NCBI RefSeq assembly: GCF_026262625.1
Contig: NZ_SHNN01000002.1
Coordinates: 62,001-126,000 of the forward strand
From: Candidatus Litorirhabdus singularis
GTDB taxonomy: Bacteria > Pseudomonadota > Gammaproteobacteria > Pseudomonadales > Halieaceae
Reading direction: 5' to 3'
DNA length: 64,000 bases
The notes below the pieces were generated by a model. The model worked only from the letters and a program-made list of their open reading frames with translations, was not told the DNA's origin and searched no databases. The position numbers and the translations under genes are program-made. Each line of letters starts with the position of its first letter. Position 1 is the stretch's first letter. Positions 21,318-56,173 of this stretch are shown piece after piece.

Positions 21318-22468
21318 ACTACCAAATGCAGTTTTACGAGGGGTATGCCAGGCTCCCAGATAAATATGAGGCCCTACTGGCAGTGGCGGCGGAACAAGGG
21401 CTTTATTACCGCAGAGAGTGGTTTGAGAGCTTGATGGAATACTATTACATTCGCGGCCAGCGTCTGCGTTTGTATACCGTTGAGGATGCCCAGACAGGCC
21501 AACCATTGCTGATGATGCCGCTGTATCTCACCAGGACCGATACGGCGGCCCGTGGTGCCTATACGTTGGCTGCGGTGAGCCACTATGAAAATTACACACC
21601 TATGTGCATGGTGCTGGACCCTGACGCAAGCAATCAACGGAGGGAGTTGCTAACGGCCTTGTTCACCTGGATGGGTAACGCCGGGGATAATGAATCACGC
21701 ACTTCTGTTGATGTGCTTCGGCTGGCACCATTTGTCACTGATTCTGAGCTGGGCAATGATGCACTGGAGGCCATTAAGAATGCCGGTTTCGCGGCGCAGA
21801 TTTATTCCAACTCCTATAATCAGTATGAGGAGGTGGCAGGCCTCAGCTACGCCGACTATTTGGCAGGACGCAGCTCCAATCAGCGCTACAATAGCCGCCG
21901 CAGGCGGCGTAATCTGGAGAAAAAGGGCAAGCTGGAGTTCTCTATGATCACCGGCGACTCTGATCCGGTGGAGCTACGCGACGCTATTGATGATTACATT
22001 CTGGTGGCTGTTCACAGTTGGAAATCTCGCGAATCAACGATATCCAAGTTTATCCTTCACTGGATGCAGGTTGCCGCCAAGCTAGGCTATCTGCGGCTGG
22101 GTATTTTACGGCTTGATGGAAAGGCCATAGCCGCCCAGTTCTGGATCTACTCCGGCGGTGTAGGTAGTCTTACCCGCACTAATTTTCGTGAGGATTTCAG
22201 GGATGTTGCACCAGGGGTTGTGCTTTCCAATATGGTTATTGAGTACTTGCTTGACGTTGAGCATGCAACGGCACTGGACCTGGGCTACGGTGATGAAAAC
22301 TACAAAGGGCGCTGGGTGCAGGATGCGCGAGTCTACTCGGGGATTATGGGGTATAATCCTGGCACCCCTAGAGGCTTCTATACTGGTCACAAAAACATCC
22401 TTGGGCAGCCTCTGAAAAGAATGTTGAAGCGGGGCCGGTTGGCACTGCAGGTCCGGGGTGCAGTTTAA
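21314..22468 (+). CDS. FemAB/CelD-like GNAT-fold transferase
   Basis: The 384-residue protein has the features of CelD/FemAB-like double-GNAT proteins: YYRREWFESLMEYY at the start, RSSNQRYNSRRRRRNLEKKGKLEF in the middle, LRLGILRLDGKAIAAQFWIY, and YLLDVEHATALDLGYGDENYKGRW near the end. Related proteins occur in exopolysaccharide and exosortase loci; FemAB itself adds amino acids from tRNA. The overlap with an ATP-grasp gene suggests an acyl or aminoacyl modification step on a surface molecule. This link is an inference. Confidence 0.8.
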   Translation: MNYQMQFYEGYARLPDKYEALLAVAAEQGLYYRREWFESLMEYYYIRGQRLRLYTVEDAQTGQPLLMMPLYLTRTDTAARGAYTLAAVSHYENYTPMCMVLDPDASNQRRELLTALFTWMGNAGDNESRTSVDVLRLAPFVTDSELGNDALEAIKNAGFAAQIYSNSYNQYEEVAGLSYADYLAGRSSNQRYNSRRRRRNLEKKGKLEFSMITGDSDPVELRDAIDDYILVAVHSWKSRESTISKFILHWMQVAAKLGYLRLGILRLDGKAIAAQFWIYSGGVGSLTRTNFREDFRDVAPGVVLSNMVIEYLLDVEHATALDLGYGDENYKGRWVQDARVYSGIMGYNPGTPRGFYTGHKNILGQPLKRMLKRGRLALQVRGAV

Positions 22469-22790
22469 GCCGCGTCCCTCAAACACGCCTGGATACCCCA
22501 GCTGGGTAATTTACTTGCTGGTTTTGTGAACTGTTTCACTGTCAGAAAACTTTACAAATGCGCTTTTTCGGTTGGAATTCGACGTAAGCTATGACCCATA
22601 AACCATTGAATAATAAGCATTATTATTTTTCGGGAACGATACTTGCATTAAAGCTAGCTAATCGGTGATGTAATTGCCGCGGAAGATACATCTGAGCTAA
22701 ACTACACGCGCTGGACAATCGATTGTGCAGTGTAAAGCCGGTAGGAGTGTGCTTACCAATGGTGCTTGAGCTCACATTAAGGTGAATGGG
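22469..22790 (+). promoter_or_regulatory. Regulatory region: dyad plus sigma-54-like promoter
   Basis: It holds the dyad TGTCAG-AAAAC-TTTACA (22540-22556) and, 75 bases further, a sigma-54-like element GGGAAC-GATAC-TTGCA (22632-22647) with correct GG-to-GC spacing. The same dyad precedes the sigma-54 promoter of the VPLPA-CTERM gene at 86 bases. A leader of about 130 bases with small stems (for example GATGTA/TACATC) follows; I could not match it to a known riboswitch. Confidence 0.6.
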
Positions 22791-23183
22791 ATGGATGACG
22801 GGTCAGGAAAAGATAATTCAGATGCCAAGTCGGGAGATGCCCAGGGGCAGCCAGGCGTTGAGCATATGAGCTCAACCAGGCGTACGTTTTCCCGTGCGGC
22901 GCTGACCAGCAGTGGCGTCTTGCTGACGCTGGGCAATAGTGCTGCTTGGGGTGAAACATCTAGCGGCGGTAAAAAAGATAAGGGTAAGAAAGACGAGAAG
23001 GTATGTGTGTCCGCGATGATACTTGAGTCGTTTGTGCTGTCCTCGCATTTTGAGCACCACAAGAAAGACAAGAAATTCAATCACTACATGAGCCATGTCG
23101 ACCTCAACGGCGATCCTGAAGATGGCTACACCGTTTCTCTCGAAGGCCGGAACGCGTGTATGACAGGGCCCAAACACCCATAG
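22791..23183 (+). CDS. Small protein with Tat-type signal; possible cassette substrate
   Basis: The 130-residue protein starts with a Ser/Gly/Asp-rich stretch, then TRRTFSRAALTSSGVLLTLG (about residues 30-49), a twin-arginine signal with hydrophobic core, then a Lys-rich linker and a mature part of about 75 residues with two cysteines (KVCVSAM, NACMTG). I do not recognise the family. It is the first gene after a sigma-54-like promoter and lies about 200 bases before the PqqD-like gene. A role as the exported product or modified peptide of the cassette is a guess. An alternative GTG start lies at 22782. Confidence 0.6.
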   Translation: MDDGSGKDNSDAKSGDAQGQPGVEHMSSTRRTFSRAALTSSGVLLTLGNSAAWGETSSGGKKDKGKKDEKVCVSAMILESFVLSSHFEHHKKDKKFNHYMSHVDLNGDPEDGYTVSLEGRNACMTGPKHP

Positions 23184-23384
23184 CCTGATTGGAGCGCTGC
23201 CCCGGTGGTTGCTCCTGCACCATTTCTTAGATTGCTTCCCCTCTTTTAGTCTCCCCCACATTTAGCTGGGTTTGAGACACAGGTCACCCGTACCGCATAA
23301 AAAGACCCTCTGCCTGAATCGGCTGCGTGCTAAACTGGCTATTGGTTTCTGTGAATTCATCGCGTGGATATTCGAGACAAATCA

Positions 23385-23654
23385 ATGCAGTGGTGTGCCA
23401 GCGCTCCCGGCAAGACTTTTGAAGATGAAGAGGGCCTGGTGGTCTATTTCAGTCAGGGTAGTGGCAGCACCCACCTGATCACTGAAGTTGCCGCCTTTAT
23501 CCTTGAGGTGCTCGCGATGGGTCCGGCAACGACCGATGAGCTCTTGCACCAAATCGCCATTGGCGCTGATGATATTACCGAGCAGGAACTGCAGGAATCG
23601 GTGCATGAGTTGCTTGAAGAGTTGCAAGCCTCTGAGCTTATTGAGGCTGCGTAG
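23385..23654 (+). CDS. PqqD-like protein of the HPr-rel-A type cassette
   Basis: The 89-residue protein has the winged-helix PqqD-like pattern: GLVVYFSQGSGSTHLITEVAAFILEVL then acidic helices ending in LLEELQASELIE. PqqD folds are peptide-binding elements in RiPP systems (RRE). Known HPr-rel-A cassettes pair such a protein with an HprK-related kinase and a nucleotidyltransferase-like protein, exactly the order here. ATG 23385 fits the family start (M-x-W) better than GTG 23364. It ends 5 bases before the kinase gene. Confidence 0.78.
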   Translation: MQWCASAPGKTFEDEEGLVVYFSQGSGSTHLITEVAAFILEVLAMGPATTDELLHQIAIGADDITEQELQESVHELLEELQASELIEAA

Positions 23655-23659
23655 CGCCC

Positions 23660-24580
23660 GTGGTATTGCTTAAAGACCTTAACCCCGACGAATTTCAGCA
23701 TCGCCTGAAGCACCAGGGTCTCAGAATTCGGTGCGGCCCCTATGTGTACAATCTGCAGTCTGCAGAGCAAAAAATCATTGACGGACTGAGCCTGCTGTAC
23801 GCCGATTTCGAGGTCATACTCGAGGAAACCTTTGCCGACTTCCATATTGCTATGCGACCTTCCGGTTGGAGCCAGCAACTGCGCGGAGTAGTGGAGTTTT
23901 ATTGGGACGGGCGCTGCCCAATGAACATTATTGAAGTACGCCATTCCTACGCGTTTCTGGAATGGGGTATGAACTGGTGTGTCTCCATTGGCTCCGATGA
24001 GTATCTCAAGTTACATGCCGCGGTGTTGGAGAAGAATAATAAGGCGCTGATTATGCCAGGGCTGCCTGGCGCCGGTAAGAGCACCTTGTGTGCCGCTCTG
24101 ACGCTGTCAGGGTGGCGGCTACTATCGGATGAGCATGCATTGGTGCCGCTGCATACTGGCACTGTGGTGCCTTTGTGTCGCCCGGTCAGCTTAAAGAACG
24201 AGTCTATCGACATTATTCGCGAATTTGATTCCTCTGCTGTGCTGAGTCAGGTCGCTGAAGAAACCCATAAGGGCAGGGTGGCACACATGAAGGCCGACCT
24301 GGCCCCTAACAGCCACGATGCTACGCCAGTGCCAACGGCCTTGATGATATTTCCGCAGTATGAGGCCGGGGCTGAGTTCAGCCTGCGGCGCAAGCTCAAG
24401 ACTGAAGCGTTTATGTTTGCAGGGCTGCACTCGTTTAACTATAAATTACTGGGAGAGACCGGTTTCGACACCATGACTCAGCTGATGCGCTCGGTGGATT
24501 GCTTTGATCTGCGTTATTCGTCGCTGGAGGAGGCATTGGCAGCGGTTAATCATCTAGAGGCAGAGGTGTTCAAAGAGTGA
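23660..24580 (+). CDS. HprK-related kinase A
   Basis: The 306-residue protein has a C-terminal HPr-kinase-like domain: P-loop GLPGAGKS at residues 134-141, then GWRLLSDEHALVPL with an acidic metal-site pair. The N-terminal part (residues 1-130) is specific to this subfamily. HPr kinases phosphorylate a serine in a protein; the target of this type is not known to me. It starts with GTG and its stop overlaps the GTG of the next gene. No HPr-like gene is seen in the window. Confidence 0.82.
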   Translation: MVLLKDLNPDEFQHRLKHQGLRIRCGPYVYNLQSAEQKIIDGLSLLYADFEVILEETFADFHIAMRPSGWSQQLRGVVEFYWDGRCPMNIIEVRHSYAFLEWGMNWCVSIGSDEYLKLHAAVLEKNNKALIMPGLPGAGKSTLCAALTLSGWRLLSDEHALVPLHTGTVVPLCRPVSLKNESIDIIREFDSSAVLSQVAEETHKGRVAHMKADLAPNSHDATPVPTALMIFPQYEAGAEFSLRRKLKTEAFMFAGLHSFNYKLLGETGFDTMTQLMRSVDCFDLRYSSLEEALAAVNHLEAEVFKE

Positions 24581-25692
24581 ATAACCTGCTGCTGCAAGTG
24601 ATTGATAATCCAGCCGTGTGTGTCGATTTTACGCCGGGACAATGGGACGTTCTTATACCTCAAGCCAGAAACTCATTGTTACTGGCCACGCTCTACCGGC
24701 TGCTGGAACAGCGCGATCTGCTCGACAAAATTCCATTGCCGCCGCGCAACCATCTGTTTTCGGGTGTAGTCACTCATGACCGGCAAATGCTGTCTCTGGA
24801 TTATGAGGTCAAGTGGCTGCTGCGTGCTGTGCAACAACTTGAGGTACCGCTGGTTTTGCTCAAAGGCGGTGCCTATCTGCAGGCGCAACTACCCGCTGCT
24901 GGTGGCCGGCTTATTTCAGATATCGATCTGCTGGTTCCAGAGCCGCAGATTAATGCGGTGGAAGCAGCGTTCAACGCAGCCGGATGGTTAGGCGGCCATA
25001 CCGACAGTTATGACGAACGTTACTACCGCGAATGGATGCATGAAATCCCCCCCCTGAGCCATATTGAACGGGGCTCGACGCTGGATGTGCATCATACGAT
25101 TATCCCACCCACCGCCAACCCTAATACCGACGCTAGCAAGTTAATTGCAGCGGCCCGTGAGTTGCGTCCCGGTCTCATGGTACTGGCCCCGATGGATATG
25201 GTTATTCACAGTGCCACGCATTTGTTTCATGAGGGAGACTTCAATCACGGTTTTCGTGATGTACTGGATCTTGACCGTTTGCTGCGCCACTTCGCTGAGA
25301 CGGAGTCCGGGTTCTGGGATGAGCTGGTGCCGCGAGCCATCGAGTTGGACCTGCTGAAATCGCTTTTCTACGGCTTGCGCTACTCCCAGAAAATTTTCGG
25401 AACGCCGGTTCCGCCGCAGGTTCTAGCAGCGAGCTATGAGGGGGTTCCCACCAAGGCGCTGGTGCCACTGATGGATTTTCTCTTTATGCGAGTGCTGGCA
25501 CCCAATCACTTTTCTTGCGCGCGTAGGTTCGATGGCGTAGCCAGATTTTGCCTGTACGTGCGCTCCCATTACTTGCGTATGCCGATGGGGCTGCTGGTCT
25601 TGCATTTGGGGCGTAAAGCCTGGAAACGTCGCTTCACTAAAGCGGTGGATGTTGAAGACCCTGAGTATGCAGAAGACGGCGATAGAGACTGA
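24577..25692 (+). CDS. Nucleotidyltransferase-fold protein (NTP_transf_5 type)
   Basis: The 371-residue protein carries LVLLKGGAYL near residues 90-100 and SDIDLLVPE near 112-120, the pattern of the NTP_transf_5 family in which DxD binds metal. The C-terminal half is helical with a His/Asp-rich HSATHLFHEGDFNHGFRDVLDLD. This family regularly follows HprK-related kinase A. It could transfer a nucleotide or phosphosugar to a protein or small molecule. Overlap of GTGA with the kinase gene indicates translational coupling. Confidence 0.78.
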   Translation: MNNLLLQVIDNPAVCVDFTPGQWDVLIPQARNSLLLATLYRLLEQRDLLDKIPLPPRNHLFSGVVTHDRQMLSLDYEVKWLLRAVQQLEVPLVLLKGGAYLQAQLPAAGGRLISDIDLLVPEPQINAVEAAFNAAGWLGGHTDSYDERYYREWMHEIPPLSHIERGSTLDVHHTIIPPTANPNTDASKLIAAARELRPGLMVLAPMDMVIHSATHLFHEGDFNHGFRDVLDLDRLLRHFAETESGFWDELVPRAIELDLLKSLFYGLRYSQKIFGTPVPPQVLAASYEGVPTKALVPLMDFLFMRVLAPNHFSCARRFDGVARFCLYVRSHYLRMPMGLLVLHLGRKAWKRRFTKAVDVEDPEYAEDGDRD

Positions 25693-25805
25693 GGTCGGAC
25701 AACTTAAACTGGTGACACTCAACAAATAGTCCTGCGTTAGTCGAACTTTTGATGTGTTTGGCCCTCCAATGCACCACGCAAGAATAATCGAGATCGGCGG
25801 CGCAT

Positions 25806-26174
25806 ATGCAAGAGAAAACCAAATCATTGCTAGAGGGGGTATTTGAATCCACGGCGGCCTGCCTGTTGGCGATGGTGCAGGGCAACTTACTCGCAGTCAC
25901 CGTGGGACATCTCGTGATAGCGGCCCAAACCGGTGTTGTGGCTGGAGTGCTGGCACTGTTGCTTAGCTTGGTGGTACGCGTTAAGGCCTATTGGGTCGCC
26001 CCCTTGCTGCTTAGCCTGTGTACTGCGCTAGTTGACTATTTTGTTCACCCCGGTTCCTTTGGGTCTATTGCGACAGAGGCGATAGTGACCGGTTTGATAG
26101 CTGGATTGCTTTGTTTGCTGGTAGGGCTGCTGCTGCGTCTGCGGCGCCCTAAATTGTCTAACCCGGGCGCTTAA
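25806..26174 (+). CDS. Small membrane protein, unknown function
   Basis: The 122-residue protein has about three to four hydrophobic segments (roughly residues 18-35, 40-57, 63-80, 88-112), a short cytoplasmic start and a positively charged tail LRLRRPKLSNPG. No family is recognised. The ATG lies 113 bases after the nucleotidyltransferase gene, so it may or may not be in that operon. Confidence 0.55.
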   Translation: MQEKTKSLLEGVFESTAACLLAMVQGNLLAVTVGHLVIAAQTGVVAGVLALLLSLVVRVKAYWVAPLLLSLCTALVDYFVHPGSFGSIATEAIVTGLIAGLLCLLVGLLLRLRRPKLSNPGA

Positions 26175-36181: not shown

Positions 36182-37654
36182 CTAGTGCGCCATATCTATC
36201 GCATCGTCGTCGTCCACTTTCTCAGTGAAGCGGCGTAGGTAGAAGCCAGCCAATGCCAACATAACCCCACACACGGACGCAATCAGAGCCAGAGAGCCAA
36301 ACCAGAGCAGGGCGACTATGCCGACCATGCGGCGGTCCACTTCGCTGGCCGAGTTCTTGCCGTAAGCGTACATAGCCATACGATAAACCTGATTCTGATT
36401 GATCAGGTGGCCGATGTCAGAATTCAACATGCGCTGCTTGTTGCGCAATTTGAAAATGCTTTCGTCAATACCGAAGGAACGATTGGCTATCTCGTCCAGC
36501 TCAACCAATTTGTCCTCGGTATATTCGTCCAGGCTATCATTGCCTTGCTTACGGATTTGAGCAAAGCGCGACTTGTCTCTGGCGGCTTTGGAAACAACAT
36601 TGGACTCGAGCCTTGAGTTGGCCTCAAGCCGGTCAATGATTTCCTGTTTCTTGTCGGCAATACGCTGATTAACATCGTTTACGCGACCTTCATATTTTCC
36701 ATTGACGAACTCGAGCTGGTTCTTCAGCTGTCCTTCCATGGTGGACTGTTTGGTAATTGCGTCACCACCCAGATAGCCAGTAGTAATCAGTGAAAGTTGG
36801 TCTTCCTTGTTCTTGATCAGCGCCCGGTACTTGCTCTCAACCGTACTGCGCGTAAAGAAAGTCGCCTTTGACATTTCCCTGTCCATTTCGGATTTCAAGG
36901 ATTCCAGCTCACCCAGCAGGCGTTGACGTTCTTCTGCACTGCCACTGATATTACCCAGCAACATCGTTGAAATACGTTCCTCTACGGATTCCTGCTCGGC
37001 AGCCCAGTTGGCATAGTATTCGTCACGAACATCCATCAGACGACCTATTTCCTCCTGCAGCTCTGCCTCAAAGTTGTAATCGATGTTGGCCAGCACTTTG
37101 CGCATATTCTCATCGATACGCTGCGTGGAGGCCTTATACTCCTGATTGAGAGTGCCGCGCGAGCTTTCTACCTCACCCAGCATTTCATCTTCGGTAAATT
37201 TCTCGATATAGTCGCGCCGCTTTTCCAGTAGGGCGATTTCAGACTCAGTATTTTCAATCTCATTGCGGCGCGTATCAATAGCGCGATTAAGGTTAGAGAA
37301 GTTGCGCTCAAAGCCGTTGAGCATGGTTTCGAAGGTAATAATGCAAAGAAATATCACGAAACCCAAAAACAGGAAGCGCCAAGCGACGTGTTGCACGCTC
37401 ATAAAGGCGAACGTCAGCGGAATCTTGCACACTTCGACTACTGCGATCAGTAGGAAGGGGAGGCCCGCCACCAGCACCGCTGAGCCACCCGCCAGCAGGC
37501 CTCCGGTGGCCTCATTAGCAAAGGAGTTATAGGCAGAGACCGATACCACGATAGAAATGGTAAAACCGATCAACACCGCGATAATTTCTACGGTCCAGGC
37601 CAAGGTCACCAAAAAGCGCGAGTAATCGGACAAGTATTTTCTTGAGTACAGCAT
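36182..37654 (-). CDS. Large coiled-coil membrane protein, unknown function
   Basis: The 490-residue protein has three N-terminal membrane helices (about residues 14-40, 54-75, 90-110), a long charged coiled-coil stretch (about 115-430, heptad-like EIENTESEIALLEKRRDYIE and RVNDVNQRIADKKQEIIDR), one C-terminal membrane helix (about 448-472) and an acidic tail. I do not recognise a family with a known role. It could span or tether envelope parts. The dyad TGTAAA-N5-CTGACA lies 65 bases before its start. Confidence 0.75.
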   Translation of the reverse strand: MLYSRKYLSDYSRFLVTLAWTVEIIAVLIGFTISIVVSVSAYNSFANEATGGLLAGGSAVLVAGLPFLLIAVVEVCKIPLTFAFMSVQHVAWRFLFLGFVIFLCIITFETMLNGFERNFSNLNRAIDTRRNEIENTESEIALLEKRRDYIEKFTEDEMLGEVESSRGTLNQEYKASTQRIDENMRKVLANIDYNFEAELQEEIGRLMDVRDEYYANWAAEQESVEERISTMLLGNISGSAEERQRLLGELESLKSEMDREMSKATFFTRSTVESKYRALIKNKEDQLSLITTGYLGGDAITKQSTMEGQLKNQLEFVNGKYEGRVNDVNQRIADKKQEIIDRLEANSRLESNVVSKAARDKSRFAQIRKQGNDSLDEYTEDKLVELDEIANRSFGIDESIFKLRNKQRMLNSDIGHLINQNQVYRMAMYAYGKNSASEVDRRMVGIVALLWFGSLALIASVCGVMLALAGFYLRRFTEKVDDDDAIDMAH

Positions 37655-37718: not shown

Positions 37719-37735
37719 TGTAAAGATAGCTGACA
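37719..37735. promoter_or_regulatory. Third copy of the TGTCAG-N5-TTTACA dyad
   Basis: On the plus strand TGTAAA-GATAG-CTGACA; its reverse reads TGTCAG-CTATC-TTTACA, so both half-sites are identical to the copies at 22540-22556 and 45113-45129. It lies between two divergent genes. No exact sigma-54 promoter accompanies it; the nearest candidate, TGG at 37803 with AAGCA downstream, has one base too few between GG and GC. Confidence 0.55.
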
Positions 37736-44202: not shown

Positions 44203-44766
44203 TTAAGACATTTTGCGCTTGCGGCTCACACCAGCCAAGCCCAGTAGGGCTGAACCGAATAGCCAGGCAGCTGCGGGCAGGGGGACAGGGGACAGGGTAG
44301 CAGTGGCGTTGATGTTAACGATGCCTGGAGTAAACGTACTCCAGCTTCCACCCGTATTGATATCAACCGAGAAGATTGGATTGGTGCCGGGCGCTGGAGC
44401 CTCGCCAACTGGTAAGGTGCTGCAGATAAGAGCCGCACCAACACATGCGCTAGTTTCGCCTAGTTGGGTGCCATCAGCGGTCCAGGTAGTACCTGTGATG
44501 CTGCCTCCATAGACGGCAGTAGCGGTTACGGTAGCTGTGGCATAAAAGGCCGGAATATTAGTGTACGTATCCTGCGAAATAGTCAGAGTACCGGAATCGT
44601 CAAATGCACCGGTACCGGTGCCTGATCCAGTACCATCTGCAGCACCAGTAATAACGAGTACGGATGAGAAGGCCATTGCGGCGCCAACAGGCGCTGCGTG
44701 GGCTTGAGCGCCCATCAGTGCGGCAACTGATGCTGCGGTTAGAGCTAAGGGTAATTTTGTGTTCAT
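44203..44766 (-). CDS. VPLPA-CTERM sorting-domain protein (matrix/surface substrate)
   Basis: The 187-residue protein starts with a signal peptide (LALTAASVAALMGAQAHAAP), has a Thr/Gly/Ser-rich middle with few charged residues, and ends with VPLPAAAWLFGSALLGL, then a short basic tail, RKRKMS. This is the PEP-CTERM/VPLPA sorting signal handled by an exosortase, which cuts and anchors such proteins, often in EPS-making bacteria. It has its own sigma-54 promoter, a riboswitch-like leader and a terminator. No exosortase gene is seen in the window; it may lie beyond the right edge. Confidence 0.92.
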   Translation of the reverse strand: MNTKLPLALTAASVAALMGAQAHAAPVGAAMAFSSVLVITGAADGTGSGTGTGAFDDSGTLTISQDTYTNIPAFYATATVTATAVYGGSITGTTWTADGTQLGETSACVGAALICSTLPVGEAPAPGTNPIFSVDINTGGSWSTFTPGIVNINATATLSPVPLPAAAWLFGSALLGLAGVSRKRKMS

Positions 44767-45010: not shown

Positions 45011-45027
45011 AGCAATAGTTGTGCCAC
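45011..45027 (-). promoter_or_regulatory. Sigma-54 promoter of the VPLPA-CTERM gene
   Basis: On the minus strand TGGCAC-AACTA-TTGCT, a perfect -24/-12 match. It would give a leader of about 235 bases that contains the riboswitch-like RNA. PEP-CTERM genes are known to be sigma-54 dependent through PrsK/PrsR in Zoogloea. Confidence 0.9.
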
Positions 45028-45112: not shown

Positions 45113-45129
45113 TGTAAAATTTTCTGACA
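45113..45129 (-). promoter_or_regulatory. Candidate enhancer (activator) dyad
   Basis: On the minus strand TGTCAG-AAAAT-TTTACA, 86 bases before the sigma-54 promoter. It is 16 of 17 identical with 22540-22556. The spacing suits a sigma-54 enhancer-binding protein such as PrsR. It also lies 147 bases before the PPIase gene on the other strand. Confidence 0.65.
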
Positions 45130-46503: not shown

Positions 46504-47814
46504 ATGGCGATGCCTATGAATAAGCAAGAAAAAATCTATAGTCCGCTTTTCCAGCTGGTGACGCGCTGTGGGTGTGGTTTAGCGCTCAGCACGGTCGCAC
46601 TGATGTCGACTGCGGTATATGCGGCGGAAACGACCGTGAAGGCCGGCGCCGGCATCAATTATAAGTACGATGACAACATTCGAGTAACGCCGAGAAACGC
46701 GATTGAGCTTTCAGGTGCTGTAGCGAGTGGCTTCATAACGTCCGAATACAGCACTGAGAGATTCTCCGTTGTAGGCGACGCAAAAGTGGGCGTGGAGCGA
46801 TATGGCGACATTGAGCTAGACACCGATGACCCGCTCTTAGCCGAGCCCAAAGCTTCCGACTTTGATAATGAAAGTCTGGACCTTACATTAGACTTCGCTT
46901 ATGAGTGGGAGCGACACACAGTTTCTCTAGAAGGCAGATATTGGCTTGATAGCGCATTAAACACTCAGTTTACCGATACTGGACTGGGTGGTTTGAGAGA
47001 GATTGAAGGCGCTACTGAGAAAGAGACCATCTCGATAGCGCCAGCATGGAACTGGCAGATCAACCAACTCCAGCAGTTGTACACTCAAGCGAGTTGGCGT
47101 CAGGTAGAGTTTGAAAGCGACCGCTATGTTGACTATGACTACTCAAACCTATCCTCCAATTGGTCCTACTTCTGGAATGAACGTTTGCGTTTGCAGCTGC
47201 AGCCTACATTTTCGCGTTATGAGAATAAGGCAGAGTTTGCAGTAACTTCCGATACCTTTGGGTTGGAGGGTGGTGTTATTTGGAGTGTTACCGAAAAGTG
47301 GCAGTTGAACCTGCTGGTGGGTGGTACGCGCGTCTACACAGAATACGGTGGTGGTGGATTTTTTGTGGTGAATCCTGAGACCGGCCTGATTGAGTTTATC
47401 GAAATAGAAGACCAGGATGCCACGGGCTTTACGGGTAGTGCCGCGTTGGCTTTTGATGATGAGTACCAGGGCTTTAGTTTCAATATATCCTCTCGCGTTA
47501 CACCCAGCGGTGACGGAGTTTTACGCCAGACAGACGAGGCCCGCGCCAAGTATTACTGGAAGCCATTTGAGAGAGCCAGGCTGGATTTTGATGCCCGCAT
47601 TGGGCAAAGCGATACCACAGAAGATAGAGTAGAGAATGCACGCGATTATAGCGAAGCTGCGGTTCGATTTGGCTATCAGTTTGCCGAGCAATGGTGGCTT
47701 AGTGCCCGATACCGGTATCGGACGCAGGAAAATGAAAGGAGCGGTCTGGGCGAGGGTACAGGCAACTTGTTCAATGTGGGCATTTCTTACCGATTGCCCG
47801 AAGAGGTGCTGTAG
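46504..47814 (+). CDS. EPS-locus outer-membrane beta-barrel
   Basis: The 436-residue protein has a signal peptide (hydrophobic core LALSTVALMSTAVYAAE) and a barrel rich in alternating aromatic strands (YEWERHTVSLEGRYWLD, WWLSARYRYRTQENE), ending in a short YRLPEEVL. It resembles the outer-membrane proteins always placed after the export gene in PEP-CTERM EPS loci. A porin role in polymer passage is inferred. The start is 46504; 46513 is possible. Confidence 0.82.
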   Translation: MAMPMNKQEKIYSPLFQLVTRCGCGLALSTVALMSTAVYAAETTVKAGAGINYKYDDNIRVTPRNAIELSGAVASGFITSEYSTERFSVVGDAKVGVERYGDIELDTDDPLLAEPKASDFDNESLDLTLDFAYEWERHTVSLEGRYWLDSALNTQFTDTGLGGLREIEGATEKETISIAPAWNWQINQLQQLYTQASWRQVEFESDRYVDYDYSNLSSNWSYFWNERLRLQLQPTFSRYENKAEFAVTSDTFGLEGGVIWSVTEKWQLNLLVGGTRVYTEYGGGGFFVVNPETGLIEFIEIEDQDATGFTGSAALAFDDEYQGFSFNISSRVTPSGDGVLRQTDEARAKYYWKPFERARLDFDARIGQSDTTEDRVENARDYSEAAVRFGYQFAEQWWLSARYRYRTQENERSGLGEGTGNLFNVGISYRLPEEVL

Positions 47815-47874
47815 ATTGCTCAACGGCTTTCTATAGATCAATACAGTTAGGAACGTAGTTATGGTGAATCAGCA

Positions 47875-49659
47875 ATGTCGATAAGTGAAGGGTCAACACG
47901 GCCGTCGGGTTATGCGGAAGAAGAGCAAAGCCAGAGCCTTGCAGATATACTGGCGGGTTTAAAAAGGCGCCGTAAACAAATGGCAATAGTCGGTGCGGTG
48001 GTGCTAGCTATTGCAGTCATGGCAGCGCTATTTTGGCCTCCGACTTACACTTCCAGTGCGACCATCCTCATTGAAGAGCAGGAAATTCCAGAGGACATGG
48101 TGCGCTCGACCATCACTAGCTATGCTAATCAGCAGGTGGAGGTCATTAGGCAGCGCGTGCTGACATTGGCAAACATTATGCAGTTGGTCGAGCGCTTTGA
48201 GCTCTATGATGCCGATGAGCTAGCCAGAAAGCCGCGCATGGAGATCGCCGAGGACTTTATCGACGCGGTAAACCTGGATTTGCTGAATGCAGATATTATC
48301 GATCCGCGAAGTGGCAGGCCGACGCAGGCAACGATTGCTTTCACATTGGATTTCAGCGCCGACACGCCGCGAAAATCACTGAATGTGGCGAATGAACTGG
48401 TTAACTTGTTTCTCAATGAAAACTTGAGAAGCCGCTCTGAGCAAACGTCCAGCACGTCAGATTTTCTAAGGAAAGAGTCTGATAGTCTGGAGAGCGAGGT
48501 GAGGGCGCTGGAAGAAGCGATTTCCATCTACAAGTCTCAAAATCAAAACTCCCTACCTGAGAGTTTTCAGGTGAACATGCAGAACCTGACTCGTTTCCAG
48601 TCTCAATTAATTGCGTCTGAATCTCGGTTACGCGAGCTGCAAAAGCGAGAGTTGCAGCTCAAGCAGAGGTTGGCTTCAACGTCGGAATATGCGCCCTCCA
48701 TTTTGCCAACCGGTCAAGCGATTCTTGGTGATGTAGACAGGCTTAAAGCGCTCAAGTCGGAGTACTCTTCGATAAAGGCTCGGTATAGCCCCAATCACCC
48801 TGATGTACAAAGACTGTTGCGCGAAATAGAAACGCTTGAAGCACAGGTCGGTCGTCCCGACGACTTTGATGAGCTACTACGTCGCAAAGCGGCTGCTAAT
48901 TCTGAATTGGAAGGTCTTCTTGCCAAGTATAGTAGCGATCACCCTGATGTTGTAGCGAAACAGAAAATGGTCGCTGTGATCGATCAGGAAATTGACAGCT
49001 TCGATGGCGAATCGGTCCAAGCTGAGCCTGACAACCCAGCCTATTTGGTATTGGATAACGAGTTGAAATCACTGCAGATGGAAAAGTCTGCTTTGACTCA
49101 ACAGGTAGTGCAGCTAAGTTCGGATGTCGATGCGTTGAATTTGGCGGCAGCTAAGGCACCGAATGTAGAACGCGAGTACTCTGAATTGCAGCGTAACCTT
49201 AGCGTTGCGTCTGCCAAGTTTCTGGACTTGCGGATAAAGTTGAAAGAAGCAGAGCTTGCCGGTGAGCTTGAAGAAGGTAGAAAGGGGCAGCGTTTCACCC
49301 TTATCGACCCGCCGGCATTGCCTGAGCAGCCGGCAAGTCCTAACAGACCTTTGATCTTTTTCTTGGGTGTCGTCCTAGCGCTCGGTGCTGCATTAGGTAG
49401 CGCTCTCGTGATGGAAGCGCTTGACCCAAGCTTGCGAAGTGTACGGTCTGTATCTGAGCTAATGGGCATAGCTCCTCTAGTTACGATACCTTATATATTA
49501 ACGCCAGAGGAGCAGGCGGCGAAACGGCCGCAGAGAAAGTTTTTGTTGACCATAGGCGGAGCGGCTGTAGCGTTGATAATCGTGCTGACGATGATACATA
49601 TTTTCTATAAACCCCTGGACGTACTGTGGTTTGTAATTTTACAAAAAGTTGGACTATAG
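47875..49659 (+). CDS. Wzz/GNVR chain-length determinant
   Basis: The 594-residue protein has membrane helices near residues 38-58, 487-507 and 560-582, and a long coiled-coil periplasmic part between. The proline-rich QPASPNRPLIFFLGVVLALG before the second helix is the family signature. It sets EPS chain length together with the BY-kinase gene that follows by 18 bases. ATG start. Confidence 0.9.
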   Translation: MSISEGSTRPSGYAEEEQSQSLADILAGLKRRRKQMAIVGAVVLAIAVMAALFWPPTYTSSATILIEEQEIPEDMVRSTITSYANQQVEVIRQRVLTLANIMQLVERFELYDADELARKPRMEIAEDFIDAVNLDLLNADIIDPRSGRPTQATIAFTLDFSADTPRKSLNVANELVNLFLNENLRSRSEQTSSTSDFLRKESDSLESEVRALEEAISIYKSQNQNSLPESFQVNMQNLTRFQSQLIASESRLRELQKRELQLKQRLASTSEYAPSILPTGQAILGDVDRLKALKSEYSSIKARYSPNHPDVQRLLREIETLEAQVGRPDDFDELLRRKAAANSELEGLLAKYSSDHPDVVAKQKMVAVIDQEIDSFDGESVQAEPDNPAYLVLDNELKSLQMEKSALTQQVVQLSSDVDALNLAAAKAPNVEREYSELQRNLSVASAKFLDLRIKLKEAELAGELEEGRKGQRFTLIDPPALPEQPASPNRPLIFFLGVVLALGAALGSALVMEALDPSLRSVRSVSELMGIAPLVTIPYILTPEEQAAKRPQRKFLLTIGGAAVALIIVLTMIHIFYKPLDVLWFVILQKVGL

Positions 49660-49677
49660 GGGCTCGAGGATTTCGAT

Positions 49678-50487
49678 ATGGAATATATTAAAGATGCCGT
49701 TGAAAAGGCTCGAAAAGAGCGAGATGAAAAGGCAGCTACTGAGGTGCTGCCTGAAAAAGGGTCTCGTGATGCGGAGCAAACAGAGGTTACGGAAGCGCAT
49801 GGCGAGCCACGCTCGGAGCATGCTCAGTCAAGGGTGGAGCAACTCGATCCCGCTATATTGATGGAAAATCGGATCGTTGCAGCGTTCGACAATGATGAGC
49901 GAGCTGAACCCTATCGCCAGCTAAGAACACAGGTTTTGACGAAGTTTCGTCAGAATAATTGGAAGACTCTGGCGGTGACCAGTGCCCATAGCGGGGCTGG
50001 TAAGACGCTGACGGCCGTCAATTTGGCAATCACCATCGCAAAAGAGCGGAACCAGACTGTGCTATTGGTCGATATGGACTTCAAAGGTCCCAATGTTCTC
50101 GATATGCTTGGGTTATCAACCGACAAAGGCTTGCTTGACTACCTTTCTGGCGAAGCAGAGCTTAACGAGATACTGGTAAACCCCGGTCTTGAACGGCTGA
50201 CATTACTACCGTCTACACCGGTAACCGGCACTACGTCAGAGTGGTTATCATCACCGCGGATGAAAGCCGTGCTGGAAGACATTGTGAACCGCTATTCAGA
50301 TAGACTGGTGATTTTTGATCTGCCGCCTCTGCTTCGCGACGATGACGCGTTGGTATTTACGCCCTATACCGATGCGGCGTTGTTGGTGGTCGAAAGCGAA
50401 GTGTCGACGCCGGAAGATATGGAACGCTGCGTGCAGTTGCTTGAGGGTAGTAACATCCTCGGTACTGTATTCAATAAGGCGAGCTAA
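49678..50487 (+). CDS. BY-kinase-like ATPase (CpsD/EpsG type)
   Basis: The 269-residue protein has Walker A SAHSGAGKT at residues 102-110, Walker A' LLVDMDF at 129-135 and FDLPPLLRDDDALV as Walker B. It lacks a tyrosine-rich C-terminal tail, so autophosphorylation clusters typical of BY-kinases are missing. Residues 1-60 are charged and likely flexible. It pairs with the Wzz-like protein. Confidence 0.88.
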   Translation: MEYIKDAVEKARKERDEKAATEVLPEKGSRDAEQTEVTEAHGEPRSEHAQSRVEQLDPAILMENRIVAAFDNDERAEPYRQLRTQVLTKFRQNNWKTLAVTSAHSGAGKTLTAVNLAITIAKERNQTVLLVDMDFKGPNVLDMLGLSTDKGLLDYLSGEAELNEILVNPGLERLTLLPSTPVTGTTSEWLSSPRMKAVLEDIVNRYSDRLVIFDLPPLLRDDDALVFTPYTDAALLVVESEVSTPEDMERCVQLLEGSNILGTVFNKAS

Positions 50488-50508
50488 AATGGCGCCAGCG
50501 ACTTAATC

Positions 50509-51438
50509 ATGTATCTGGAACATTTTGGCCTACATTCAAAGCCGTTTAGCCTTAGCCCTGACCCGGCTTATATTTTTTTGTCATCGCAGCATAGTCTGGC
50601 TTATTACACGTTGGAGTATGGGCTGCTTTCGCAGGAGGGTATTGCTGTCATTAGTGGTGAAGTGGGCGCAGGTAAAACCACTTTGCTACGCTATTTTCTT
50701 GAGCAGCATGACGGCGACGATCTAGTCGTTGCACTTCTTGCAGACACCGACCGCGAGACCAGTAAAGATCTCTTACGGTGGGTTCTTAGTGCATTTGGTT
50801 TAGACCACACCGGAGACCAGGTAACTCTTAGGCGCAGATTTCAGGACTTTCTGATTGATAGCTACGCAGCCGGTAAAAACGCGGTTTTGATCGTTGATGA
50901 AGCACAGAACTTAAAGAAAAAGGCCTTGGAGCAGCTACGCTTACTTAACAATATCAATACCGGGCAAGATGAATTACTGAAGATCGTGCTAGTGGGGCAG
51001 CCAGAGCTCAAAGACAAATTGAGTAGTCCCAAGCTACGCCAGTTTGCGCAAAGGATTACGGTAGAGTTTCATCTTGATTCTTTGCGGGCCGAGGATGCTC
51101 TAGGCTATGTGCATCATCGAATGCAGGTAGCAGGTGCGGACCATGAAATATTTACTTCAGCCGCAATCTATACCGCCTACTATTTGGCTGGCGGAGTACC
51201 ACGACTAATTAATTCGCTTTGTGATCATGCCTTGTTGCTGGCCTATTCAAAAGGTGTCGACATAGTAGATATAGAGGCTATTACCGAGTCCGCTTCCAGT
51301 AGGAAAATTGGTGGAGTTAATAGAAAAGGGGAAAGCTCTGAGCAGTTGGAGATAGCGAGAGACTACGTGAAAAGTGCTACTGGTAGAGAAATTGGTGAAG
51401 ATCGCAGGTCTGCGATACTCCAGCTGTTTGATAATTAG
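50509..51438 (+). CDS. ExeA-like secretion ATPase of the PEP-CTERM EPS type
   Basis: The 309-residue protein starts MYLEHFGLHSKPFSLSPDPAYIF and has Walker A GEVGAGKTT at residues 50-58 and Walker B AVLIVDEAQN. This N-terminal pattern is that of ExeA/GspA-like AAA ATPases, one subfamily of which is found at exosortase EPS loci, in this same place after the kinase. It lies 21 bases after the kinase gene. Confidence 0.88.
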   Translation: MYLEHFGLHSKPFSLSPDPAYIFLSSQHSLAYYTLEYGLLSQEGIAVISGEVGAGKTTLLRYFLEQHDGDDLVVALLADTDRETSKDLLRWVLSAFGLDHTGDQVTLRRRFQDFLIDSYAAGKNAVLIVDEAQNLKKKALEQLRLLNNINTGQDELLKIVLVGQPELKDKLSSPKLRQFAQRITVEFHLDSLRAEDALGYVHHRMQVAGADHEIFTSAAIYTAYYLAGGVPRLINSLCDHALLLAYSKGVDIVDIEAITESASSRKIGGVNRKGESSEQLEIARDYVKSATGREIGEDRRSAILQLFDN

Positions 51439-51520
51439 ACATTCGGTATCGGAACGAGAGGTAGTGCGGGCTTTGAGTTTTACCTATCGAATAAACTGAT
51501 GCAACGGGGAAACAAATAGA

Positions 51521-53521
51521 GTGGGGCTTGAAAGGCTACATTGGTTCTGGAATCGGCTCAGATGCATGTCAATTCCAGAAGTTTCACATAGATTGGCGAG
51601 ACTTGTAACCAGCAGGTTCCAGCGTCTAGGTGGTTTACGAGCCCTGCCCGTGATTACCGACGAGCGGATTGCCGACGCACCGGTATGGGTGCATGCCAGC
51701 CTCAATGACCATAGTGTTATCGAAGTAGCCGACAGAGTTGTCGCTGGTCGTTTAGATGTATTCGCTATCCGTGACTACGATATAGGCGCGGTGCCGCAGT
51801 GGAATCGCGATCCGAAAACCGGGGTAAATGCTCCTCTGGATTTTGGGAAAACTCTGGATTATCGCAATTCAGCAATTGTCGGCGATGTAAAGTATTTATG
51901 GGAGCCGGCGCGACATTTACACCTGGTTACATTAGCTCAAGCATTTGCGTTAACAGATGAACAAGAATATTTGAACTGCATAAGGTTACACCTTGATAGT
52001 TGGTTTGATCAGTGTCCGTATTTACAAGGCCCGCACTGGAGCAGTTCACTCGAATTGGGTATTCGTCTTATAAACTGGAGTATTACTTGGCAACTGGTTG
52101 GAGGCAGCGAGAGTCAACTGTTCATGGGCAAGGCCGGTAAAGAGTTCCGAGATCGCTGGCTCACATCAGTTTATCAGCACGCACACTTTATTCATGGGCA
52201 TTATTCTCGATTTACTTCTGCAAACAATCACCTTATAGGAGAGTCAGCTGGTGTTTTTGTTGCTGCGCAAACGTGGCCGTATTGGTCGGAGATTGCCGAT
52301 TGGGAAGAAAAATCGTTGTCTATCCTAGAGACTGAGGCAGTCAAACAAAATTTCTCTGATGGCGTCAATAAGGAGCAAGCAATATCTTACCAACAGTTTG
52401 TATTGGACTTCCTGCTTTTTCCATTGTTGGCGGCAAAAGCTAACTCGAAGGATTTTTCAGCCACTTACTTAGCAGTCATGGAAAGAATGCTTGAGTATAT
52501 TGCATCGCTTTTGGATGTAGCTGGTAATGTGCCAATGATCGGAGATGCTGATGATGGCTATGCGGTTAGGCTTACTTATAGCAGCGACTTCTGTCCCTTT
52601 CGCTCTTTACTGGCGACTGGTGCCGTACTGTTTTCACGCCCTGAATTTAAGCTGAAATCGGGGACCTTCGATTCGAAATCTATCGCTCTTTTGGGTGCAC
52701 AGGGTGCAGAAGCATATACTCGACTTAAAGCGGAAAAAGCTAGACTGCCAGTGAAAACCTCTTTTCCAGAAGGTGGATATTTCATACTCGGAGGAAGCTA
52801 TGAATCTCCTGATGAGGTCAAGATGGTGGTTGATGCGGGTCCACTCGGCTATGGCGGAATAGCGGCCCATGGTCATGCAGACGCGCTAGCGGTATACCTT
52901 TCAGTTGCGGGAAGGGAAATCTTGATCGATCCTGGCACATTTGCTTATCACACAGAGCAGAAGTGGAGAGACTATTTTCGCGGGACGTCCGCGCACAATA
53001 CCATTCGAATCGATGGAATGAACCAGTCTGAGATTGGCGGTAACTTTATGTGGTTGCGCAAGGCGGAAGCTACGTTGGAAAGCTTTGAGGATAATGGTGA
53101 GCAAGTGATTTTCCGAGGCTCACATCGCGGCTATGAGCAAGGTGCCAATCCTGTATCGCACAAAAGAGAGATCATTTATCACAGGACTAAAAGATGCTTC
53201 GATATTACGGATACACTTGAGATAAATAGTGGAGATTTCGTGCATCTTGTCGATCAGTTCTGGCACTTTTCTGAGAATTGCAGCGTTGAGCAAGTTGAGG
53301 GAAACGTTTTTCTTGCGATTTCTGACGACGTTGCTGTTGAGATAAAGTTAGATGAGCGGCTTAAGGTAGATGTCCATAAAGCTGATGAAGAGACGCCTCT
53401 CGGCTGGGTTTCTCGTAAATTTGATGCCAAGGTGCCAGGCATTACTCTAGACGCTTCCAGTCATTTTGAAAGAACACTCACATTGAGGACTCGTTTGAGT
53501 GTGGTGGGTGCGATTGGCTAA
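51521..53521 (+). CDS. Heparinase II/III-family polysaccharide lyase-like protein
   Basis: The 666-residue protein has an (alpha/alpha) toroid N-terminal part and a beta-sandwich C-terminal part with the family core GYGGIAAHGHADALAVYLSVAGREILIDPGTFAYH and FRGTSAHNTIRIDG. Such enzymes cleave uronic-acid polymers (alginate, heparin, ulvan) by beta-elimination. Within an EPS locus it may trim or release the polymer. A start at GTG 51521 is assumed. AlgD is next, so a uronate-containing EPS fits. Confidence 0.86.
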   Translation: MGLERLHWFWNRLRCMSIPEVSHRLARLVTSRFQRLGGLRALPVITDERIADAPVWVHASLNDHSVIEVADRVVAGRLDVFAIRDYDIGAVPQWNRDPKTGVNAPLDFGKTLDYRNSAIVGDVKYLWEPARHLHLVTLAQAFALTDEQEYLNCIRLHLDSWFDQCPYLQGPHWSSSLELGIRLINWSITWQLVGGSESQLFMGKAGKEFRDRWLTSVYQHAHFIHGHYSRFTSANNHLIGESAGVFVAAQTWPYWSEIADWEEKSLSILETEAVKQNFSDGVNKEQAISYQQFVLDFLLFPLLAAKANSKDFSATYLAVMERMLEYIASLLDVAGNVPMIGDADDGYAVRLTYSSDFCPFRSLLATGAVLFSRPEFKLKSGTFDSKSIALLGAQGAEAYTRLKAEKARLPVKTSFPEGGYFILGGSYESPDEVKMVVDAGPLGYGGIAAHGHADALAVYLSVAGREILIDPGTFAYHTEQKWRDYFRGTSAHNTIRIDGMNQSEIGGNFMWLRKAEATLESFEDNGEQVIFRGSHRGYEQGANPVSHKREIIYHRTKRCFDITDTLEINSGDFVHLVDQFWHFSENCSVEQVEGNVFLAISDDVAVEIKLDERLKVDVHKADEETPLGWVSRKFDAKVPGITLDASSHFERTLTLRTRLSVVGAIG

Positions 53522-53573
53522 GACGCAGGTAAGTATCAGTTTTTCAATATTGTAAGTTAAAGAGACAATTACA

Positions 53574-54899
53574 ATGGCAGAGAATGTGAGGGTAAGTATA
53601 TTTGGCATGGGTTATGTGGGTGCTGTTTCAGCAGCCTGTCTTGCCAATGAAGGGAACTACGTGGTCGGGGTTGACCCGAATGCTACTAAGGTCGAATTGA
53701 TCAACAAGGGTGTGTCTCCCATTATCGAGCTAGACCTAGATGTACTCTTGGCGAGTGGCGTGGAGCGCGGACTTATCTTCGCGACTCCAGATGTACGAGA
53801 AGCGGTTTTCTCAACAGATATATCCTTTATCTGTGTTGGTACGCCTAGTCAGCCAAATGGCAGTCTTGATTTAAAGTATGTGCGTGCAGTTTGTGAGGAT
53901 ATTGGGAAGGTCCTTGCTGAGAAGGATGACTTTCATGTGGTTGTTGCTCGCAGCACTATGTTGCCTGGAAGTATGGAGGACGTTGTTATTCCGGCGCTTG
54001 AAGAGGCCTCAGGGAAAAAAGTTGGGGTCGATTTTGGCGTTTGTAATAATCCCGAGTTTCTTCGGGAGGGTACAGCAATATATGATTACTATAATCCGCC
54101 CAAAACAGTTATTGGAGAAACCGACAGTCGCAGCGGTCAACTTTTGGTGAACATCTACGAGAATATGGACGCACCGCTTATCAGAACGAGTATAAATACT
54201 GCAGAGATGGTCAAATACACAGATAATGTGTGGCATGCATTAAAAGTCAGCTTCGCTAATGAAATAGGAAATATTTGTAAAGAAATTGATATAGATGGCC
54301 ATGAGGTTATGGACATTTTTTGCAAGGACACCAAACTAAATCTTTCTGCATATTACATGAAGCCGGGCTTTGCTTTTGGTGGATCCTGCCTGCCAAAAGA
54401 CGTTAGAGCACTCAAATATAAGGCACGGGCGCTTGATCTAGAGTTACCTGTGATAAATTCAATCATGGAGAATAATCAGATTCAGGTCGACCGCGGTTTC
54501 GATATGATTGTTTCAAAGGGGAACAAGAAAGTCTCCATATTGGGTTTTAGCTTCAAAGCAGGAACCGATGATCTTCGCGAAAGTCCAATGGTAGAAGTTA
54601 TCGAGCGACTCATTGGAAAGGGCTACGACCTTAAGCTATATGATAAAAATATTAGCCTAGCTTCCCTGATTGGAGCGAATAGGGACTATATACTCAATCA
54701 TATACCTCACATTTCCAAGTTAATGGTTTCCAGTATGGAGGAGGCAATCGCGCATGGAGAAACGATTGTGATCGGTAATGCGGCAGAGGAATTCAGGCAG
54801 ATTTTGTCGGACACGAAAGATGAACAGGTGGTTGTCGATCTAGTCAGGGTTTCTGATCTGCGAAGTATAGAGGGTCGTTATGATGGCATTTGCTGGTAA
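53574..54899 (+). CDS. algD: GDP-mannose 6-dehydrogenase
   Basis: The 441-residue protein closely follows Pseudomonas AlgD: GMGYVGAVSAACL (GxGxxG at 11-16), FICVGTPSQPNG, NPEFLREGTAIYDY, FAFGGSCLPKDVRAL with catalytic Cys272 and GFSFKAGTDDLRESPMVE; even the last four residues, GICW, agree. It oxidises GDP-mannose to GDP-mannuronate, the donor for alginate. No alg8/alg44 or other alginate-synthase genes are in view, so the polymer is likely a heteropolysaccharide. The next gene overlaps it by 20 bases. Confidence 0.93.
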   Translation: MAENVRVSIFGMGYVGAVSAACLANEGNYVVGVDPNATKVELINKGVSPIIELDLDVLLASGVERGLIFATPDVREAVFSTDISFICVGTPSQPNGSLDLKYVRAVCEDIGKVLAEKDDFHVVVARSTMLPGSMEDVVIPALEEASGKKVGVDFGVCNNPEFLREGTAIYDYYNPPKTVIGETDSRSGQLLVNIYENMDAPLIRTSINTAEMVKYTDNVWHALKVSFANEIGNICKEIDIDGHEVMDIFCKDTKLNLSAYYMKPGFAFGGSCLPKDVRALKYKARALDLELPVINSIMENNQIQVDRGFDMIVSKGNKKVSILGFSFKAGTDDLRESPMVEVIERLIGKGYDLKLYDKNISLASLIGANRDYILNHIPHISKLMVSSMEEAIAHGETIVIGNAAEEFRQILSDTKDEQVVVDLVRVSDLRSIEGRYDGICW

Positions 54900-56085
54900 A
54901 AAACGACGGGTTCTCTTCATCGTAGAAAATCTACCTTCTCCATTTGATAGGAGAGTTTGGCAGGAAGCTACGACACTGGAGGAGGCTGGTTACGAAGTCT
55001 CGATTATATGTCCTACTGGGAAGGGTTTTGAGCGGAAATTTGAGGTGATAGACAATATACACATTTACCGCCACAGCCTTCCTTTGGAAGCGGACGGAGC
55101 TGCGGGTTATGCCTTGGAATACAGTGCTGCGCTGTTTTGGGAGTTCTACTTAGCGTTTAAGGTATTGTTTACTAGGGGGTTTGACGCAATTCATGCATGC
55201 AATCCCCCAGACCTTATATTTATTGTTGGAGGATTTTTTAGGTTTTTCTTCGGCAAAAAGTTTCTTTTCGACCACCACGATATAAACCCTGAGCTCTACG
55301 AGGCGAAGTTCAATCGCCGTGATCTTTTTTACAAGATCATGTTGCTTTGTGAACGCCTTACGTTCAAAACCGCCAGCGTGTCTATTGCTACCAATGAATC
55401 ATACAAAGAAGTTGCGATAAGGCGAGGGGGGATGCCTGCTGATCGGGTTCATGTGGTAAGAAGTGGCCCAATGCTGGACAGACTTAGGATAGTTGAACCT
55501 GTGCACGAGTTAAAGAAGGGGCGGAAATACCTAGTCGGTTATGTTGGTGTAATGGGGAAGCAAGAAGGCATCGATTACCTGCTCCGTGCGGCTAAGTTCC
55601 TCATAAAGGATAAGGGGCGTGAGGATATCCACTTTGGTCTCGTTGGAGGTGGAACCGAGTTAGAGAATCTGGAGGAATATGCAAGGAATTTGGGTGTTGC
55701 TGACTATGTGACCTTTACGGGAAGGGTGCCAGATGATGAGCTATTGGCAATGCTGAATACGGCAGACGTCTGCGTTAATCCTGATGTGGCCAATGAGATG
55801 AATGACAAATCTACTATGAATAAAATCATGGAGTATATGGCGCTTGCTAAGCCAATTGTTCAATTTGATTTGATTGAGGGCAAGTTCTCGGCCGGGGAGT
55901 CTTCGCTTTATGCGAAGAGGAATGATGAAGAAGACTTTGCTGAAAAAATACTGCAGCTTCTGGGTGATCCTGAGCTCAGGACAACTATGGGTGAATTTGG
56001 CAGAAACCGTGTCATCAGTCAGCTTGAGTGGAGCTTTGAGCAGCCCAAGTTGTTGGATGCTTACGATCAATTGTTTGCTAGCTAA
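54880..56085 (+). CDS. Glycosyltransferase family 4
   Basis: The 401-residue protein opens VLFIVENLPSPFDRRVWQEATTLEEAGYEVSIICP and has the GT4 donor-site pattern VSIATNESY and, near residue 320, the acidic EGKFSAGESSLY segment. Overlap with algD means they are translated together. The sugar could be mannuronate or another residue; not determined. Confidence 0.88.
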   Translation: MMAFAGKKRRVLFIVENLPSPFDRRVWQEATTLEEAGYEVSIICPTGKGFERKFEVIDNIHIYRHSLPLEADGAAGYALEYSAALFWEFYLAFKVLFTRGFDAIHACNPPDLIFIVGGFFRFFFGKKFLFDHHDINPELYEAKFNRRDLFYKIMLLCERLTFKTASVSIATNESYKEVAIRRGGMPADRVHVVRSGPMLDRLRIVEPVHELKKGRKYLVGYVGVMGKQEGIDYLLRAAKFLIKDKGREDIHFGLVGGGTELENLEEYARNLGVADYVTFTGRVPDDELLAMLNTADVCVNPDVANEMNDKSTMNKIMEYMALAKPIVQFDLIEGKFSAGESSLYAKRNDEEDFAEKILQLLGDPELRTTMGEFGRNRVISQLEWSFEQPKLLDAYDQLFAS

Positions 56086-56173
56086 CTGCCGAGTCGAGGC
56101 TCAGCCTTGTAGCGCTAGTGTTCAGTTATATTATGTGTTTTTTACGATTGTACTTGCAGAAAGGTTTATATGA

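Follow-up and report, generated by a model that had tools for sequence, protein, structure and literature searches.

Which genes is the HPr-rel-A cassette of Candidatus Litorirhabdus singularis expressed with, and what does its promoter suggest about its role? The window, a 64,000-nucleotide stretch of contig NZ_SHNN01000002.1 (positions 62,001–126,000), carries four consecutive genes of this kind on the + strand. The first codes for a Tat-signal exported protein (22791–23183, sequence STRRTFSRAALTSSGVLLTLGNSAAWG; the start is uncertain, GTG at 22782 being possible too). It is followed by the HPr-rel-A system's PqqD-like peptide chaperone (23385–23654; TIGR04353, 42.7 bits, cut-off 35; PF05402, 28.3 bits, cut-off 23.4), an HprK-related kinase A (23660–24580; TIGR04352, 330.4 bits, cut-off 200) and a PF14907 (NTP_transf_5) nucleotidyltransferase (24577–25692; 171.5 bits), which contains an LKGG...SDIDLLV stretch and whose gene overlaps that of the kinase. 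With TIGR04353 and TIGR04352 both over their cut-offs and PF14907 alongside, this gene set is, by its model matches, a formal HPr-rel-A cassette headed by a Tat-signal protein. The two HPr-rel-A models name the parts of the system but say nothing of what it does or how it is regulated; to them are added here a leading Tat-signal gene and a candidate PrsR promoter.

The sequence-only reading had placed a dyad and a sigma-54-like promoter ahead of the cassette, and much of that description is borne out. A predicted PrsR-type upstream site, motif 1 of Haft et al. 2006, lies at 22540–22556 (+) with the sequence TGTCAGAAAACTTTACA; it is identical at 16 of 17 positions, as had been claimed, to TGTCAGAAAATTTTACA at 45113–45129 (−), which precedes a VPLPA-CTERM protein gene. 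The motif is present, but its symmetry as a dyad is imperfect, only 4 of 6 arm positions agreeing. A predicted sigma-54 −24/−12 type promoter, GGGAACGATACTTGCA, follows at 22632–22647 (+), after a gap of 75 nt and with its GG and GC correctly separated by 10 nt; 10 of 12 consensus positions agree and 2 deviate. When up to 3 mismatches are allowed, the 17-nt motif has three matches in the 64-kb window against 0.22 expected from shuffles. The third full TGTCAG-N5-TTTACA, at 37719–37735 (−), is followed after 64 nt by an ORF of 490 residues (36182–37654) with no NCBIfam match; it was set aside as a promoter, with no sigma-54-like candidate 25–130 nt downstream.

Haft et al. 2006 (PMC1569441) describe a bipartite element in which a 17-nt motif with TTTACA at its end is separated by 32–92 nt (mean 62.8) from a 17-nt sigma-54 motif. 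They report it before 99 of 167 PEP-CTERM genes of proteobacteria, attribute it to PrsR and allow a few targets other than PEP-CTERM genes. The window copy is like this cis-element in its motif 1 with the TTTACA end, in its sigma-54 motif 2 with the GG/GC core, in a 75-nt spacing within the published range (there counted between 17-nt motifs, so that the two counts may differ by ~1 nt), in the exported-protein gene downstream, and in a genome that encodes PrsK, PrsR and XrtA. It is unlike the published element in its downstream product: the first gene codes for a Tat-signal protein without a PEP-CTERM match, and HPr-rel-A enzymes follow. A comparable arrangement of predicted upstream enhancer and sigma-54 promoter is reported for pepA of Aquincola tertiaricarbonis, a PEP-CTERM gene whose RpoN dependence has been shown experimentally (PMC9850573, in excerpt). 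pepA is a single PEP-CTERM gene, and no HPr-rel-A cassette appears in those passages.

The remainder of the genome provides the setting for the window copy. First, the exact pattern TGTCAG-N5-TTTACA occurs at 36 sites, against none for a backward-read control pattern, and 29 of the 36 have a GG-N10-GC candidate 25–130 nt downstream. Second, 30 of the sites precede products with PEP-CTERM or VPLPA-CTERM tails as judged by reading; single NCBIfam PEP-CTERM-type models match at most 23 of the 34 distinct downstream products. The VPLPA-CTERM gene of the window (44203–44766, −; TIGR03370, 28.4 bits, cut-off 25.35) has its own predicted sigma-54 site, TGGCACAACTATTGCT at 45011–45026 (−), 86 nt from its motif 1. 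The other six sites precede the cassette's Tat gene, an acyltransferase gene, a filamentous-adhesin-type gene and three unmatched products (L011, L023 and L034). The acyltransferase site (L026, C11:419369–419385) is the window's identical 17-mer, lying before a PEP-CTERM/exosortase-associated acyltransferase gene (TIGR03694, 170 bits, cut-off 112); the regulon therefore appears to include genes other than exosortase substrates. At the adhesin gene (L032, C11:1008585–1008601; NF012204, 141 bits, cut-off 60) the element has a sigma-54 partner. Judged by sequence, 22540–22556 and 22632–22647 together reproduce the published motif 1 plus sigma-54 motif 2 element in full. The element is common to the two gene sets first noticed as sharing it, but not private to them.

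The putative regulator is present in the same genome. PrsR scores 715 bits (cut-off 502.6) and PrsK 720 bits (cut-off 300), and both are clustered with an XrtA exosortase that is likewise over its cut-off, at C11:449928–465455, on the cassette's contig and 364 kb from it. Two more exosortase-like matches fall below the XrtA cut-off, at C11:131227–132000 (174 bits), ~5 kb past the end of the window, and at C15:280209–280973 (152 bits). Within the window, positions 46504–57031 hold EPS-type genes that resemble XrtA-associated chain-length, tyrosine-kinase and ATPase families and score below their cut-offs.

A check proposed along with the original observation, whether HPr-rel-A cassettes of related genomes carry the element, comes out positive. 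Under a strict rule, the element was sought within 2.6 kb upstream of the HprK match as motif 1 with at most 2 mismatches, followed 40–92 nt on by a sigma-54 site with the GG/GC core and at least 9 of 12 consensus positions. In the first set of genomes it is found at 45 of 75 cassettes from PrsR-positive genomes (opposite strand 2/75), at 0 of 36 from PrsR-negative genomes (opposite strand 0/36) and in 0 of 2220 shuffles; the contrast between the two groups is confounded with descent, because all but one of the 36 PrsR-negative cassettes come from other classes. By class, the PrsR-positive cassettes divide into 45 of 64 in the window's own class and 0 of 11 elsewhere. All 16 cassettes of the relatives sample carry the element, as do 23 of 39 PrsR-positive cassettes in the class sample (0 of 1 PrsR-negative) and 6 of 9 same-class cassettes in the phylum sample, where the other classes give 0 of 11 PrsR-positive and 0 of 35 PrsR-negative, the latter count leaving out 2 of 37 cassettes over the cut-off (fragments G594 and G578). 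The best sites lie 0.92–1.56 kb upstream of the HprK match in 44 of the 45 cassettes and 2.2 kb upstream in the remaining one. Several site-less cassettes have a good motif 1 with no sigma-54 partner at 40–92 nt, others have nothing, and three PrsR-positive ones had less than 1.6 kb of upstream sequence. Other-class HPr-rel-A cassettes without PrsR (e.g. L193–L228) keep the Tat-signal first gene and lack the element.

Named genomes supplied a separate set of 80 loci, of which four were dropped as duplicates, leaving 76 outside the first set. The strict rule finds the element at 31 of these, with 0/76 on the opposite strand and 0/400 in shuffles. A position weight matrix trained on the first set raises this to 47 of 76 at a 1% shuffle threshold (opposite strand 2/76), and in 9 of 76 it also has matches in the 2.6 kb that begin at the hprK match. 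Applied in relaxed form to the first set itself, the matrix finds 57 of 75 PrsR-positive and 0 of 36 PrsR-negative cassettes, a partly circular result because 44 of those sites trained it; more weight is given to the strict rule in both sets and to the matrix in the named set. Halieaceae, the family of the window, include Sediminihaliea (locus L248, the same as G025). As predicted from these sequences, regulation of this kind is well supported in the Gammaproteobacteria as GTDB defines them, with no extension to other classes in the samples.

The distance between the two motifs carries a further signal. A DNA-bound activator that loops to sigma-54 polymerase is expected to depend on the face of the helix. 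The observed spacings cluster at 51–52, 62–64, 70–76 and 81–87 nt, in steps of ~10–11 bp, and at a 10.5 bp period the resultant length R is 0.705 across 44 cassettes (best period ~11). The sites of the window's own genome behave alike, with R of 0.82 at the same period (n=31, excluding two weak candidates, L018 and L034).

Co-occurrence and linkage also point to PrsR. Genomes with HprK_rel_A are PrsR-positive in 16 of 16 cases in the relatives sample (26 of 58 genomes overall), 40 of 41 in the class sample (106 of 369) and only 24 of 61 in the phylum sample (45 of 398), giving hypergeometric values of 7e-8, 1e-23 and 1e-10, respectively, which are not corrected for descent. In the large samples at most 4–6 candidates per genome were scored, so absences are soft; the one class-sample genome with a cassette and no PrsR (G065) is 75% complete. 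The cassette can do without PrsR, since it also persists in genomes that lack it. In at least 16 genomes, no more than 10 kb separates prsR from hprK. At two annotated loci (L082 and L084), the cassette has PrsK and tviB/tviC-like sugar genes to one side of it and, to the other, an XrtA-associated ATPase-like protein, at 303–307 bits just below its cut-off of 324.5.

Based on these comparisons, 22540–22647 is probably a PrsR-dependent sigma-54 promoter through which the HPr-rel-A cassette is expressed with PEP-CTERM/VPLPA-CTERM surface proteins, a reading to which we assign a probability of roughly 0.83. Within this class the cassette very probably belongs to the exosortase regulon controlled by PrsK, PrsR and sigma-54, because the element recurs, its spacing is phased, and PrsR both co-occurs with the cassette and is linked to it. 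The proposal that one activator, PrsR acting with sigma-54, serves both the VPLPA-CTERM gene and the PqqD/HprK-A/nucleotidyltransferase genes is supported on the same grounds and by the genome-wide sites with their phased sigma-54 partners, the regulation itself being deduced from sequence. PrsK would signal to PrsR, which would bind TGTCAG-N5-TTTACA and, placed ~75 nt upstream and on the helix face that suits contact, activate sigma-54 polymerase at GGGAACGATACTTGCA. The transcript would open with the Tat-exported protein gene and most likely run on through the PqqD-like, HprK-related kinase A and nucleotidyltransferase genes; a transcript of this extent would mean that the cassette's products appear at the same time as the PEP-CTERM/VPLPA-CTERM surface proteins. 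The site, its geometry, the gene order and the same-class recurrence are observed directly, and the return of the same switch at copy after copy of the cassette points to a cell-surface or biofilm role.

What the cassette would do under this control can be approached from its parts. Across 31 sequences of the kinase family, H99, the P-loop K120, D137 and E138 never vary. Its profile finds the HPr kinase structure 1jb1 weakly (E 0.0014), with H99, K120 and D137-E138 aligned to H, K and D-D, the second acid being E where HPr kinase has D. Kinases of the PadeK/PsmK type are HprK-like, and lasso systems use a PqqD-like chaperone. In excerpts of PMC9266682, phosphorylated lasso peptides are described with the tailoring kinases PadeK (paeninodin) and PsmK, the latter with PsmN (pseudomycoidin), and with a conserved H-K-D-D; for pseudomycoidin a nucleotidyltransferase homologue also acts on the small genetically encoded substrate. 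The active-site residues of the cassette kinase are like those of these lasso-peptide kinases. The window's PqqD matches the lasso PqqD model weakly (17 bits, cut-off 70), an NCBIfam scan of the window genes between 20064 and 29464 finds no lasso cyclase or leader peptidase, and, unlike in lasso systems, the putative substrate is a Tat-signal protein of 130–290 residues. By analogy, a chaperone, an HprK-type kinase and a nucleotidyltransferase beside a small exported protein would resemble pseudomycoidin tailoring.

The candidate substrate, the window's Tat protein, has no Pfam or NCBIfam match and none to PEP-CTERM models. In an alignment of 45 family members, the only positions shared by all are the R-R and, early in the mature region, one Cys and one Ser. 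A simple C-x(1,2)-S pattern close to the mature N-terminus occurs in 114 of 159 proteins examined and hence is not universal. An AlphaFold2 model from the 45 sequences has a mean pLDDT of 71.4, with residues ~70–125 and 160–218 more confident; Foldseek finds no PDB match at E<=0.001, VIA-align 2 returns a single row at Z 2.2, and a sequence search of the PDB finds no match. The predicted fold is uninformative and provides no evidence for a new fold. With less certainty than the regulatory steps, the PqqD-like protein may present the Tat-signal protein to the kinase and nucleotidyltransferase, so that it would be modified in the cytoplasm and then exported by Tat to the surface or matrix. A tentative proposal, to which we give somewhat less than even odds, is that HPr-rel-A tailors proteins for the biofilm matrix in the manner of a RiPP system, in which a rapidly diversifying Tat-exported protein is recognised via the PqqD-like chaperone, phosphorylated, then nucleotidylated or glycosylated inside the cell, and deployed on the PrsK/PrsR signal with exosortase-sorted proteins. 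Modification inside the cell would explain the Tat route.

The most durable alternative is that the cassette is itself a regulator, with a kinase acting on the PTS or another regulatory protein, and that the Tat protein is an unrelated neighbour. The weak match to HPr kinase structures fits this idea, which is nevertheless unlikely, at about one chance in four, given the position of the Tat protein: by rule, 97 of 111 cassettes, including some from PrsR-negative genomes, have a Tat-signal ORF before PqqD, although at least L207 among them is spurious. In the named set the figure is 69 of 78 loci, five of which look spurious (L265, L266, L269, L276 and L292) and from which L256 and L311, with short upstream sequence, were left out. 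Furthermore, the PqqD model TIGR04353 is a peptide chaperone model.

It is less likely still that the Tat-protein gene alone is under the PrsR/sigma-54 promoter, with PqqD, HprK-A and the nucleotidyltransferase under a promoter of their own. The ~200 nt between the Tat stop at 23183 and the PqqD start at 23385 would fit this, and PEP-CTERM genes with the element are mostly single-gene operons according to PMC1569441. However, no sigma-70-like site occurs on the + strand within 22400–26000, the gap holds nothing that resembles a terminator, L075, L077 and L085 have overlapping Tat and PqqD reading frames, and across the class the element stands upstream of the whole gene set. Recognition of a genuine element by another NtrC-family sigma-54 activator is very unlikely. 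The genome would offer many related activators, since the PrsR model has 20 matches at E<=0.001, a single one of them exceeding the curated cut-off; against this, PMC1569441 assigns the motif to PrsR by phylogenetic profile, none of the 36 cassettes in PrsR-negative genomes has the element, and prsR itself is close by in at least 16 genomes. Chance resemblance, or functionless DNA inherited with its neighbourhood, is highly improbable despite the non-independence of related genomes, the former being rejected on shuffles, opposite strands and PrsR-negative genomes and both being at odds with recurrence in many families and phased spacing.

Control of the cassette by PrsR and sigma-54 thus remains the preferred reading. 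The element itself was published in 2006, and what looks new is the cassette's place in the regulon. A search of the open-access literature returned no paper with 'HPr-rel-A' or related names (subscription papers and the TIGR04352/TIGR04353 database notes are outside its scope, so that priority is not proven) and none joining PEP-CTERM with HPr kinase or exosortase with HprK; PEP-CTERM and PqqD appear together in one paper, on another peptide system by its title (PMC3023750). A cassette named by curation, without a function found in open-access papers, would thereby gain a regulator, an exosortase/EPS neighbourhood and a candidate substrate. Its role becomes directly testable, and the PrsR regulon would be widened beyond exosortase substrates.
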